This document shows, one piece after another, positions 50,846 through 54,301 of a stretch of DNA of 64,000 nt; within the stretch, counting starts at the first letter, position 1, and each line of letters begins with the position of its first letter. The notes under the pieces are model-generated. The model saw nothing but the letters and a program-made list of their open reading frames with translations, did not search any database and was not told where the DNA came from. A program made the translations under genes and the position numbers. The stretch is from positions 1 through 64,000 of the forward strand of contig NZ_JASBRQ010000008.1 in NCBI RefSeq assembly GCF_030149425.1, written 5' to 3'. The stretch comes from Maricaulis sp. (lineage in GTDB: Bacteria > Pseudomonadota > Alphaproteobacteria > Caulobacterales > Maricaulaceae).

Positions 50846-51146
50846 GCTGTCGCCCTCCGCTTTGGAGTAAACACTGCGCCGCATTTGAGAACAAGTCGTG
50901 AACGTCAGCTTTTTGCTGCGGTTTCGGTGAAGGACCAGACGCTACAACCCGTCCGTGCCCTGAATTGCGAAACGTTTTCAGTTTTCTTGATTATCAATTG
51001 CAATTTTGCGGCTTTCCCATTGATAATAAGTGCTTTTATTTCCAAAGCTTTGGTTTGCTCCTCTCGCGTCATGCGCATAGAGTATTCATGGACATGTTGC
51101 CGTATTCGGGAGTGGTTCCGGGTACGGCACATCGGGGAGAAACATC
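50846..51146. other. intergenic region between ruvC and the repeat-protein genes
   Basis: 301 nt, visibly more AT-rich than its surroundings around 50960-51060. It should carry the divergent promoters of ruvCAB and of the first repeat-protein gene; no clear -35/-10 pair, CtrA box or sigma-54 site stands out. A 75-codon minus-strand frame in it lacks a ribosome site and is not accepted as a gene. GGGGAGAAACATC directly precedes the ATG at 51147. Confidence 0.5.
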
Positions 51147-51488
51147 ATGGCGAAAAAGGGCAAGCTGAGCCGCCGCTCTTTCCTGGCCCGTGTGGCCGGG
51201 GGAACCGTCGCGACCGGTGCTGTGGCTGCCGTGGCCGGCGCAGCGATCATCCAGCGCAGCTCGGATGCCGATCCCGCTGACGAGATTGGCATGGCGCGCA
51301 CCGGCATCACCGACAGCGACCCGAATGATTATGCCAATCACGGCGCCAGCCCGACGGGAATGACCGACAATGATAGCGGCCGCTGCGCCGATAATCCGGG
51401 CTATGGCCGCGGCAATACCGGCTACACCGACAGCGATGAGTCAGGCTGTACCGACACAGCAGGGCGCGGACGCGGACCAAGCAATTAG
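51147..51488 (+). CDS. Tat-signal Gly/Arg/Asp repeat protein, paralogue 1
   Basis: 113 residues. M-A-K-K-G-K-L-S-R-R-S-F-L-A-R carries a canonical twin-arginine motif, followed by a long Ala/Val/Gly hydrophobic core (18-34) without an obvious A-x-A site. Three imperfect repeats follow: T-G-I-T-D-S-D-P-N-D, T-G-M-T-D-N-D-S-G and T-G-Y-T-D-S-D-E-S-G, each with a Gly/Arg-type tail. Two Cys (R-C-A-D and G-C-T-D) lie in repeats 2 and 3 and could form a disulfide. No family is recognised. It is the first of three tandem paralogues sharing the same N-terminus. Confidence 0.8.
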   Translation: MAKKGKLSRRSFLARVAGGTVATGAVAAVAGAAIIQRSSDADPADEIGMARTGITDSDPNDYANHGASPTGMTDNDSGRCADNPGYGRGNTGYTDSDESGCTDTAGRGRGPSN

Positions 51489-51549
51489 GGCATGCACACG
51501 CCCACGGGCCGCACACCCGGGGCGATATCCAATTCATGCGAGGACAGTT

Positions 51550-51571
51550 CGAAACCGTGGGGGCGGTTTCG
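51550..51571 (+). repeat. perfect inverted repeat upstream of paralogue 2
   Basis: CGAAACCG (51550-51557), six-base loop, CGGTTTCG (51564-51571), ending 23 nt before the ATG at 51595. It could be an operator or an mRNA hairpin between paralogues 1 and 2. No T-tract follows, so it is not a typical terminator. Confidence 0.5.
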
Positions 51572-51594
51572 CGAGACAGGCACAGGAGCTTTGA

Positions 51595-52296
51595 ATGGCC
51601 AAAAAAGGTAAACTCAGCCGGCGATCCTTTATGACCCGTGTGGCCGGCGCCGCACTGGCGACCGGCGCGACCGGCGTCGTCACGGGCGGGGCCCAGGCCC
51701 AGAACTATACCGGACGCACCGATAGCGATCCCAATGATGCCGTCGGTTATGGCCGCACCGGCCAGACCGATAGCGATAGCGGCTCCAACCGCGATCGTGC
51801 AGGTTATGGCCGCGGCAGCTCCGGCATCACCGATAGCGATCCCAGCGATGCCGTCGGCAATGGCCGGGGACGCTCCGGCATCACCGATAGCGATCCCAGC
51901 GATGCTGTGGGCAATGGGCGCGGACGTTCCGGTATCACCGACAATGACCCGAGCGACGCCGTCGGCAACGGTCGCGGGCGTTCCGGTATCACCGACAGCG
52001 ATCCCAGCGACGCCGTCGGCAATGGTCGCGGACGTTCCGGCATCACCGACAGCGATCCCAGCGACGCGGTCGGCAATGGCCGCGGACGCTCCGGTATCAC
52101 CGACAGCGATCCCAGCGATGCCGTCGGCAATGGACGCGGGCGCAGCGGCTATACTGACAGCGATAGCGGCACAATGGGCGATCCGGGCGGCAATGGCCGC
52201 GGACCGCGCCGCTCCTCCAGCACGGGCATCACCGATGGCGATAGCGGGAACAATGCCGACCGTGTCGGTTATGGCCGCGGCACCGATAATCGCTGA
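51595..52296 (+). CDS. Tat-signal Gly/Arg/Asp repeat protein, paralogue 2
   Basis: 233 residues. Same N-terminus (M-A-K-K-G-K-L-S-R-R-S-F-M-T-R), hydrophobic core and a likely cleavage site after A33-Q-A35. The mature part is almost wholly repeats: two degenerate units, six units of 18 residues (S-G-I-T-D-S-D-P-S-D-A-V-G-N-G-R-G-R), then two variant units with G-N-G-R-G and G-Y-G-R-G. T-D-S-D-x-x-D gives closely spaced acidic side chains that could bind Ca, and G-R-G-R gives basic patches. No hydrophobic core is visible, so the protein is probably disordered or metal-organised. AGGAG precedes the start. Confidence 0.82.
   Translation: MAKKGKLSRRSFMTRVAGAALATGATGVVTGGAQAQNYTGRTDSDPNDAVGYGRTGQTDSDSGSNRDRAGYGRGSSGITDSDPSDAVGNGRGRSGITDSDPSDAVGNGRGRSGITDNDPSDAVGNGRGRSGITDSDPSDAVGNGRGRSGITDSDPSDAVGNGRGRSGITDSDPSDAVGNGRGRSGYTDSDSGTMGDPGGNGRGPRRSSSTGITDGDSGNNADRVGYGRGTDNR
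51817..52140 (+). repeat. six tandem 54-bp coding repeats
   Basis: Six in-frame units of exactly 54 bp (18 codons) with no length change. Differences are mostly synonymous third positions (GGC/GGT, GAT/GAC, CGC/CGG). The only coding change in the shared core is TDND for TDSD in unit 3. This pattern fits recent expansion with purifying selection on the protein. The same RNY bias creates long antisense open frames, which are artefacts. Confidence 0.93.
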
Positions 52297-52335
52297 CCTT
52301 CTCGGCAGCGTTGAAAAGTGAATGTGCAAGGGGCC

Positions 52336-52358
52336 GGGCCAGACGTAATGTCAGGCCC
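52336..52358 (+). repeat. hairpin between paralogues 2 and 3
   Basis: GGGCCAGAC pairs with GTCAGGCCC with one mismatch around GTAAT, in the 112-nt gap between the second and third repeat genes. There is no T-tract. Together with the hairpin at 51550 it may influence relative expression of the paralogues; this is inference. Confidence 0.4.
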
Positions 52359-52408
52359 GCCTCGCTGCTATTGTTACCGCGAGAGCGGAAGTTGAGAGGA
52401 TATCTGTC

Positions 52409-53014
52409 ATGGCCAAAAAGGGATTGCTGAGCCGTCGCTCATTCCTGACCCGTGTCGGGGGGACATCACTGGCCCTGGGTGCGGGGGGTGCTGTCACCGG
52501 CTGCGCAACGACCGGCTATACAGATTCTGACCCCTATGACCCGGCCGGTGCTGGCCGCGGAAGCTCGGGGGTGACCGACAGCGATAGTGGCGCCTATGCG
52601 GACCCGGTTGGACGTGGTCGCGGCGGGCGCGGCGGCGTCACGGACAGCGATAGCGGTGCCTATGCGGACCCGGTTGGGCGCGGTCGCGGCGGCTCCGGCG
52701 TGACCGACAGTGACCGCGGCGCCTAGGCCGATCCCGCAGGACGCGGTCGTGGTGGCTCGGGTGTAACCGACAGCGATAGCGGCGCCTATGCCGACCCGGC
52801 AGGACGTGGTCGTGGCGGCTCGGGCATTACCGACAGCGACAGCGGCAGCTATGCCGACCCGGCCGGTCGTGGCCGCGGCGGCTCCGGCGTGACGGACAGC
52901 GATAGCGGCGCTTATGCCGATCCGGCCGGACGTGGTCGCGGTAGCTCCGGTGTCACCGACAGCGATACCGGTGCCTATGCCGACCCGGTCGGGCGCGGAC
53001 GCGGCCGCTATTAA
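52409..53014 (+). pseudogene. Tat-signal repeat lipoprotein, paralogue 3, with internal amber codon
   Basis: M-A-K-K-G-L-L-S-R-R-S-F-L-T-R twin-arginine start and a lipobox V-T-G-C with Cys32, unlike the other two. Seven repeats of about 21 residues follow (G-S-G-V-T-D-S-D-S-G-A-Y-A-D-P-A-G-R-G-R-G). Codon 106 (52724-52726) is TAG where every other unit has TAT, giving a 105-residue product. The frame then stays open for another 95 codons to TAA at 53012. The damaged unit also has S-D-R-G for S-D-S-G. Either a fresh pseudogene, a functional short form, or a sequencing error. GAGAGGATA lies upstream of the ATG. Confidence 0.75.
52562..53005 (+). repeat. seven tandem 63-bp coding repeats in paralogue 3
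   Basis: Seven units of 21 codons; unit 2 has one extra codon (66 bp). Unit 3 holds the TAG. The codons are more diverged between units than in paralogue 2, so this array is older or less recently homogenised. The T-D-S-D core and the G-R-G-R-G tail are kept in all units. Confidence 0.88.
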
Positions 53015-53092
53015 GCACTGCGGCGATTTGCCGTTTGCGCTGCCGGACGGGTCAGCTAGCGTCGACATCAAAAGACATTGAGGAGGCTTCCG

Positions 53093-54301
53093 ATGGCTCA
53101 GAATGCCTGGATGAAGGACGTATTCGCCTACATGCTCGACCCGGTCAGCTCCGGCGACTTCTTTGACAGCCATCACGAGAAGAAGGCCCTGATCGTCAAG
53201 CGGGATGAACCGGGCCGATATCTCGACCTGTTATCCATCAAGCGGATCGACGAAATCGTCTCCAGCGGCCTCCTGGACAATGGACCGCTCGACATGACGC
53301 GCGCCGACCCGCCTGTCGGGCCCGGCGACTATACTTTCGATAATGGCAATATCGATCGCGGCGCGGTGGCCCGTCAGTATCAGCGCGGTGCCACATTGAT
53401 CCTGCCGCAGCTGCATTTCTCCGACCCGGTCCTGGCCAATTTCTGCCGCGCACTGGAAGCGCAATTGTCCTGCCATGTGCAGACCAATATCTATCTCACC
53501 CCGCCCGACGCGCAGGGCTTCCGCACCCATTACGATGATCACGACGTCTTCGTCATGCAGATCGAGGGCTCCAAGGCCTGGCGGCTCTATGACACACCGG
53601 TCGAAAACCCCTATCGCGGCGAAGGCTACCAGTCCGGAGCGCATGAAATCGGTGATCCGGTTGAAGAATTTATCCTCGAACCGGGTGAAATCGCCTATGT
53701 CCCGCGCGGCCTGATGCATGATGCCCGCACGCATGGCGACGGGGCCTCGCTGCACATCACCGTCGGGCTGATCGTCAAGACCTGGGCCGATCTGATGCTG
53801 GAGGCGGTATCGGAGGTGGCCCTGTCATCACCGGAATTCCGCCGCGCCCTGCCCGCCGGCTACGCCCGGCCGGATTTCGACCGCGCTGAAGCCCGGGCCC
53901 ATTTCGCCAAGCTGGTGGAGGGGTTTGTCCAGAACGCCAAGCTGGACAATGCGCTCGATGTCTTCGTCGACCAGTTCATCCGCTCGCGCGCACCGGATAC
54001 GCCGGGAACCATCGTCAATTTCGACACCCCGCTCAATGCCGAGCGGCAATACCGCCTCAAACCCCTCGTCCCCTGGCGCTTTGCCGGTGATGGCAAGGAA
54101 GTGGTGATCATTACCGCAGGCGGCGAGGTCCGCTTCCCGGCCGAGGCCGAACCTGGTCTGCACGTCCTGCTCGATGGCGGCGTAGTCAGCCAGGCGACTT
54201 TCGAAGCCCTGGATGAGGATGCGCGTCGCGACACGATCCAGAAACTCTTCGCCTTCGGCCTCGTCGATCCGCTCGAAGACAAGCTGCAGCCGGCCAAGTA
54301 A
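53093..54301 (+). CDS. JmjC-type cupin_4 oxygenase, ribosomal-oxygenase-like
   Basis: 402 residues from the ATG at 53093, preceded by a strong GAGGAGG. Fe(II)/2-oxoglutarate oxygenase fold: metal ligands H146-x-D148 (T-H-Y-D-D-H-D-V) and H209 (R-G-L-M-H-D-A-R). I-E-G-S-K-A-W-R-L-Y follows the first ligands, as in YcfD/MINA/NO66, and the C-terminal region has the helical dimerisation and winged-helix layout of that family. E. coli YcfD hydroxylates an Arg of ribosomal protein L16. It starts 78 nt after the third repeat gene on the same strand, so those Gly/Arg repeats are alternative substrates to consider (inference). Confidence 0.85.
   Translation: MAQNAWMKDVFAYMLDPVSSGDFFDSHHEKKALIVKRDEPGRYLDLLSIKRIDEIVSSGLLDNGPLDMTRADPPVGPGDYTFDNGNIDRGAVARQYQRGATLILPQLHFSDPVLANFCRALEAQLSCHVQTNIYLTPPDAQGFRTHYDDHDVFVMQIEGSKAWRLYDTPVENPYRGEGYQSGAHEIGDPVEEFILEPGEIAYVPRGLMHDARTHGDGASLHITVGLIVKTWADLMLEAVSEVALSSPEFRRALPAGYARPDFDRAEARAHFAKLVEGFVQNAKLDNALDVFVDQFIRSRAPDTPGTIVNFDTPLNAERQYRLKPLVPWRFAGDGKEVVIITAGGEVRFPAEAEPGLHVLLDGGVVSQATFEALDEDARRDTIQKLFAFGLVDPLEDKLQPAK

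Follow-up and report, generated by a model that had tools for sequence, protein, structure and literature searches.

A 64,000-nucleotide stretch of the genome of a Maricaulis sp. (the window) contains three genes encoding repeat proteins with twin-arginine translocation (Tat) signals, followed head to tail on the + strand by a gene encoding a JmjC_2 oxygenase, with intergenic gaps, in order, of 106, 112, and 78 nucleotides (nt). These genes probably constitute a compact maturation system, in which a ROX-type JmjC hydroxylase is dedicated to Tat-exported repeat proteins, perhaps for iron acquisition. From comparisons of sequence and gene order, action of the enzyme on the repeats appears very likely. 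The genes of the locus are as follows.

51147..51488, + strand: repeat gene 1, 113 residues; Tat-type signal and four [TS]DxD units, without a lipobox
51595..52296, + strand: repeat gene 2, 233 residues; Tat-type signal, AQAQ cleavage-like site, and ten units (mostly GITDSDPSDAVGNGRGRS)
52409..53014, + strand: frame of repeat gene 3; Tat-type signal and a lipobox-like VTGC (lipoprotein type), broken after 105 codons
52724..52726, + strand: in-frame TAG in repeat gene 3, a Tyr codon at the same place in sister repeats
53093..54301, + strand: P0003, JmjC_2 (cupin_4) oxygenase of the NO66/MINA type, 402 residues from its ATG

The first-pass annotation of this DNA had described three adjacent paralogues beginning M-A-K-K-G-x-L-S-R-R-S-F, followed after 78 nt on the same strand by a cupin_4 oxygenase with H146, D148, and H209. 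This common start is present in all three genes, and the oxygenase lies where described, 78 nt past the end of the repeat gene 3 frame (53014), with all three residues in place. The TAG at 52724-52726 was absent from that description. As it stands, the open reading frame (ORF) of repeat gene 3 encodes 105 residues, with the frame beyond the TAG open to 53014 and holding four more unit starts. The sister genome of L005/L034, whose oxygenase is 92% identical, has an uninterrupted copy of the matching gene, and the stop therefore represents either a real, recent pseudogenisation or an assembly error.

Linkage of the oxygenase to the repeat genes

Among the 137 genomes of the family (own genome included), an oxygenase orthologue is found in 44 and the repeats (gene 2 as query, E ≤0.001) in 43, all 43 being common to both, with neither present in the other 93 (Fisher p = 6e-35, uncorrected for kinship). 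The sole genome with an orthologue and no repeats, G043, has an oxygenase truncated by a contig edge, and of the 46 genomes with any oxygenase match, two (G003 and G005) carry a distant paralogue only. A class sample of 385 genomes, again including our own, gives the oxygenase (E ≤1e-60) in 12 and the repeats (profile A3, E ≤1e-6) in 11, all 11 in common; diverged repeats of the gammaproteobacterial type would escape both repeat queries. Outside our own genome, a repeat gene adjoins the oxygenase at 11 of 12 class loci, with L152 and L153 repeating by sequence the organisms of L050 and L054, and in a phylum sample (398 genomes, 8 positives) all four new loci of another family are paired, each divergently transcribed.

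Adjacency is similarly close in the best 80 of 174 oxygenase relatives in named genomes, many of which overlap the family genomes by organism, with a repeat gene adjoining the oxygenase at 75 loci and three further loci (L060, L062, and L112) beginning at contig edges. At 65 loci a strict repeat gene lies immediately upstream on the same strand with gaps of 9–255 nt, and at seven (L055, L056, L059, L064, L068, L071, and L104) the upstream Tat gene carries diverged repeats. The repeat gene is downstream in L070 and L099 (in two frames in the latter), and convergent downstream in L100. By record titles the system is found among Maricaulales, Caulobacterales, Sphingomonadales, and Gammaproteobacteria; across Alpha- and Gammaproteobacteria the pairing persists whether the repeat gene is upstream or downstream of the oxygenase, convergent with it, or divergent from it. 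None of eight distant JmjC paralogues (27–34% identity) from the same family genomes has a Tat repeat gene in the 8–9 kb around it, two regular-expression matches there being unrelated frames, and in the tree a 100/99 branch separates these eight controls from the remaining 50 rows, some very long-branched, of which 48 have a repeat gene. The gene-neighbourhood search proposed in the first-pass annotation thus extends the co-occurrence far past the genome of origin (43 shared of 137; 75 of 80 loci), and the family, class, and further-family samples rule out chance neighbours.

The same distribution bears on the possibility, allowed for in the first-pass annotation, of an ordinary ribosomal oxygenase placed by coincidence next to the repeat genes. 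The closest solved relatives of the enzyme are indeed the ribosomal oxygenases NO66 and MINA. However, every genome encodes ribosomal proteins, whereas 93 of the 137 family genomes lack the orthologue, and these are precisely the ones that also lack the repeats. The pairing is, furthermore, retained in four gene arrangements across two classes, leaving a purely ribosomal role very improbable.

Recurrent neighbours at the alphaproteobacterial loci (ruv genes, transketolase, and others) look by eye like inherited synteny. In related genomes, 16 of the 17 unlinked places retrieved also show repeat-type frames. The Maricaulis genome itself has a fourth repeat gene (L134:5168-5887, G000:C26), unlinked to the oxygenase and near a moaA-like gene, and a membrane acyltransferase-like gene (HGSNAT_cat/DUF418, from Pfam on L150) recurs near the unlinked repeat genes of L139, L140, L142, L143, L149, and L150. 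In another family (L182-L185) the precursors are miniature, with about two units; they carry an LTDxDI-like stretch ahead of the Arg pair and are transcribed divergently to the oxygenase. Oxygenase relatives on plasmids (133 records) are all below 60% identity, the best at 33.5%, and a search of viral contigs for a relative found none. One genome (G077:C62, L114) carries a second oxygenase, 37% identical and with its own repeat gene, which in the tree joins two pairs from a different alphaproteobacterial family and was possibly acquired horizontally. The L056 contig, labelled Dehalococcoidia, clusters with Gammaproteobacteria in the tree and is probably misbinned.

The oxygenase, its repeats, and the candidate target

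The oxygenase belongs to Pfam JmjC_2 (PF08007, E = 7.2e-29; bit score 100.3, cut-off 22), with the following features predicted from alignment and from its model.

53528..53536, + strand: H146-x-D148 of the predicted metal-binding triad, invariant in 42 rows and aligned with NO66
53573..53575, + strand: K161, invariant in 42 rows and aligned with a Lys of NO66
53717..53719, + strand: H209 of the predicted metal-binding triad, invariant in 42 rows and aligned with NO66
54071..54271, + strand: C-terminal winged-helix-like part, approximately residues 327-393, in strand-strand-strand-helix-helix-helix order (DSSP of the model)

From its place in NO66, we take K161 to be the expected 2-oxoglutarate-binding lysine. 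Identity to NO66 is only 22-24%. The model (pLDDT 91.5) aligns with NO66 along its full length over residues 1-398, and matches the JmjC, dimerisation, and winged-helix architecture of ROX oxygenases. Sequence matches are far stronger to NO66 (E = 4.5e-31) and MINA (E = 3.4e-29) than to YcfD (4e-6 for R. marinus, 0.003-0.007 for E. coli), and both sequence and structure comparison place NO66 and MINA, not YcfD, nearest among solved relatives. The strand and helix order of the C-terminal part would fit the leader-binding RiPP recognition element (RRE) of ribosomally synthesised and post-translationally modified peptide (RiPP) systems, and a possible RRE-like role for this part is suggested by the model, yet the order fits the ROX winged helix equally. 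Passages of PMC12710340 associate RRE-like folds and RiPP-like contexts with PF08007 proteins, and note bacterial JmjC homologues in such contexts. No PqqD/RRE chain is among the 50 matches listed for the full-length model, which has no bearing either way on this idea.

The repeats are arranged in tandem arrays of 54 and 63 bp (TRF) and are evidently under selection as protein, with synonymous changes between copies far exceeding random expectation: codon pairs differing between copies number 95 synonymous against 5 non-synonymous in gene 2, and 135 against 41 in gene 3 (stop-bearing unit counted), where random single codon changes would be ~75% non-synonymous. These pairwise counts are non-independent, the direction nonetheless being clear. 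The gene 2 product is predicted to be disordered (pLDDT 41), and its model is thus uninformative as to structure. A scan of the repeat proteins against Pfam and NCBIfam returned weak Tat-type or spurious matches only, with PF06462 for gene 2 (21.3 against a cut-off of 21, from a 10-residue stretch) judged spurious.

The repeat proteins are probably exported by Tat, as predicted from their signal motifs and from a TatC in the genome (PF00902, E = 1.9e-65). The twin-arginine motif SRRSF is present in all three window genes, and RR in 105 of 111 repeat proteins, these being preselected on R[RK]x[FM][LMI] such that only the choice of R or K is informative. Matches to the NCBIfam TAT model are below its cut-off only, with TIGR01409 and TIGR02811 the sub-threshold matches for repeat gene 1. 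A lipobox-like site occurs in the oxygenase-proximal gene of 22 of 26 multi-gene loci compared with none of 44 other repeat genes, pointing to a probable lipoprotein form alongside soluble ones.

Two unit types predominate among 769 alphaproteobacterial units, type A (TDSDxGxYADPxGxGRG, 535 units) and type B (TDSDPxDxxGxGRG, 96 units). In type A, G15 is kept in 99% and R16, the arginine at the GxGR position, in 94%, both positions lying outside the search anchors. The gammaproteobacterial L055, L059, and L064 instead carry TD[SAT]xDQxGGEx units with Arg confined to the C-terminus, and L068 of the same group retains one such unit and has no Arg, giving Arg counts of 0-3 in these four precursors. 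After its single TDSSDQS unit, the L068 precursor (L068:5612-5899) has no further repeats but an acidic tail rich in Met, Asp, and Glu. Units of the TDSDSSDQSGR type, with some Arg, are found in L056, L071, and L104 of the same group, and the alphaproteobacterial L164 has SDxDPxDPIGxG units without Arg in its repeats. In the 70 oxygenase-proximal precursors counted (the script missed 10 of the 80 loci), only D, G, and S are present in at least three copies in all 70, followed by T and R (68 each), A (67), N (60), and P and Y (57 each); at least three His occur in 4 of 70, and His is not a conserved repeat residue.

The residues known as targets of JmjC hydroxylases are Asn, Asp, His, Arg, and Lys. 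Asp is preferred here because it alone among these fits all precursors, and an aspartate of the T-D-x-D...D-x-x-G unit, giving beta-hydroxyaspartate, is our leading candidate at roughly even chances. Hydroxylation of Arg in the GxGRG part of the repeats, in the manner of YcfD on the ribosomal protein uL16, is improbable by comparison. It would draw on the near-constant Arg of type A units, on the presence of at least three Arg in 68 of 70 precursors, and on the Arg carried by L056, L071, and L104. Passages of PMC6006756 describe modification of uL16 Arg81 by YcfD, and those of PMC12707348 and PMC12257519 describe the related JmjC/cupin enzymes BipG and PbsQ as acting on ornithine derived from Arg. 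However, YcfD is the more distant relative of the oxygenase, and the precursors with C-terminal Arg only (L055, L059, and L064), with none (L068), or with none in the repeats (L164) belong to enzymes nested in the same clade, which sets back YcfD-type Arg hydroxylation as a shared chemistry. Of the link drawn in the first-pass annotation, a cytoplasmic oxygenase dedicated to Tat-exported repeats is therefore strongly supported by co-occurrence and adjacency, whilst its analogy to YcfD and Arg in GRGRG is weakened by the nearness of NO66/MINA and by the Arg-free repeats.

Putative Fur control and the role of the repeats

Upstream of the first repeat genes, enriched 8-mers combine into a 7-1-7 palindrome (TGCGAATNATTCGCA, TGATAATGATTATCA), which we take to be Fur-box-like. 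Since passages of PMC11005374 and PMC11475020 give no Caulobacter Fur-box consensus, the label draws on the general resemblance of the pattern to Fur boxes and on its place beside iron-type genes. Two such sites precede repeat gene 1.

50966..50980, + strand: Fur-box-like 7-1-7 palindrome TGCGAAACGTTTTCA, 13 of 15 pattern positions
50988..51002, + strand: second Fur-box-like site TGATTATCAATTGCA, 22 bp further on from the first

These are the only palindrome matches with at most two mismatches in the window; ~2.3 would be expected by chance, so that only their position is telling. With the scan pattern TGMDAATNATTHKCA and at least 13 of 15 positions required, the palindrome lies upstream of 40 of 68 operons (12 of the 80 loci being dropped for want of a start or flank) against 34 of 675 regions that precede other ORFs in the same loci, 3.2% of random 300-bp windows of these loci, and 1.4% of shuffled upstream regions. 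A stricter pattern, TGMGAATNATTCKCA with one mismatch, has seven sites in the whole Maricaulis genome and none for the backwards control, with five of the seven, at four places, flanking TonB-receptor-type genes or the gene of an SBP_bac_6 solute-binding protein, itself followed by a permease-like frame. The genome encodes two Fur-family proteins above cut-off. Furthermore, at seven gammaproteobacterial-type loci the gene behind the oxygenase is PepSY_TM-like in L055, L059, L064, and L068 (Pfam on L059 only; 4-nt overlaps in all four) and TonB-receptor-like in L056, L071, and L104 (Pfam on L071), with the siderophore-receptor subfamily TIGR01783 the best NCBIfam match, below its cut-off, for L056 and L071. 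Through a putative Fur box, the operon would be controlled by Fur (iron) in many hosts. Two genomes of the genus (L171 and L174) also have a Fur-box-like site preceding a dnaX-like gene (identified by eye), with no evident iron gene beside it.

Several observations weigh against the system proposed here, or against its link to iron. No repeat gene was seen at L075 and L084 among the 80 loci, which are also the two tree rows of the 50 without one, nor on the whole 5,968-base contig of G338 (L165), the exception in the class sample; an oxygenase in relatives without repeats, which the first-pass annotation had named as evidence to the contrary, is thus encountered rarely, in these three cases. 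The Arg at the GxGR position makes Arg a possible target in most hosts. The scan pattern was fixed once the enriched 8-mers of these very regions were known, and kinship among the genomes makes them non-independent. The palindrome falls below 13 positions in 28 of 68 operons and in 8 of 10 class loci (2 of 10 reaching 13), and reaches 13 at one of 15 unlinked family repeat genes (one start unsure) and none of three in other families. Two of the seven strict sites (L174 and L176) flank no evident iron gene, the imperfect sites of the window operon are not among the seven, and most alphaproteobacterial loci have, by eye, no iron gene beside the oxygenase.

From regulation onwards, the steps of the maturation system are ones that we infer. 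Iron shortage would relieve Fur repression, with the precursors and oxygenase co-produced, and the oxygenase, perhaps gripping the conserved Tat leader via its winged-helix domain, would hydroxylate repeat residues in the cytoplasm. Tat accepts folded cargo, and would then export the modified precursors, some soluble and the oxygenase-proximal one often lipid-anchored; products of repeat genes elsewhere in the genome (such as G000:C26:71314) would be modified in trans. Because the operon appears Fur-controlled in many hosts, extracytoplasmic binding of iron or another metal would be the likeliest role of the modified repeats, one whose chances we put at about half.

The enzyme and repeats may also be a substrate pair whose product is a calcium-binding or structural protein of the envelope or matrix, not an iron carrier. 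DxDxG is similar to the loops that bind calcium, and hydroxylated Asp is known from calcium-binding EGF domains. The TDxDxG...D form of type A units (535 of 769, the search pattern favouring that G), the lipoprotein-like form at many loci, and the operons with a palindrome below 13 positions would suit such a product. The enrichment of Fur-like boxes, the neighbours of the oxygenase in gammaproteobacteria, and the gammaproteobacterial TDSSDQ-type repeats, which lack DxDxG, argue against it, making it the less probable account, if one of some weight. Beta-hydroxyaspartate is a ligand in some non-ribosomal siderophores. In its most specific form, the iron-related proposal would be of a ribosomally made, siderophore-like polymer, in which Tat-exported Asp/Gly repeats made under iron starvation have Asp converted to beta-hydroxyaspartate by the ROX-type JmjC enzyme and gather Fe(III) at the surface for a TonB receptor and PepSY_TM protein; this version is speculative and, we consider, unlikely to hold in full.

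Relation to known systems

The present enzyme differs from NO66 (RIOX1), MINA53 (RIOX2), and YcfD in being genetically tied to exported repeat proteins, with its gene distribution arguing against a ribosomal substrate. FIH is likewise a JmjC-type hydroxylase of repeat proteins, with Asp also among its targets in ankyrin repeats. Passages of PMC3569879 describe Asn and His as ankyrin targets of FIH. However, FIH is a distant fold match to the oxygenase model (TMq 0.32-0.37), is eukaryotic, and has targets that are not exported. BipG and PbsQ of the biphenomycin RiPPs are JmjC/cupin oxygenases that, in the passages cited above, act on a ribosomal precursor; in contrast to the present enzyme, which would act alone on a long exported repeat protein, they modify ornithine within a short core alongside several further enzymes.

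For the system as a whole, the nearest analogy appears to be the Sec-exported RiPPs known as bufferins and oxazolins, modified by multinuclear non-haem iron-dependent oxidative enzymes (MNIOs), which in passages of PMC12452194 combine an iron enzyme beside its precursors, a leader that is an export signal, and a metal-related role. The MNIO family is unrelated to the oxygenase, however, with Sec and Cys motifs there against Tat and Asp/Gly/Ser repeats here, and no recurrent partner gene stood out at the alphaproteobacterial loci. The RiPP-type feature of a precursor gene adjoining its modifying enzyme is seen here as a gene pair at 75 of 80 loci, with modification predicted. No earlier description of the pairing of oxygenase and Tat repeats was found among the best-ranked matches in the open-licence PubMed Central literature.

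A bacterial NO66/MINA-like JmjC subfamily gains from this a strongly predicted non-ribosomal substrate, in a small system that would join protein hydroxylation, Tat export, and possibly iron supply. If true, the modified, exported repeat proteins would be of a kind not described before, and, were Asp hydroxylated and iron bound, a ribosomally encoded counterpart of the hydroxyaspartate siderophores.

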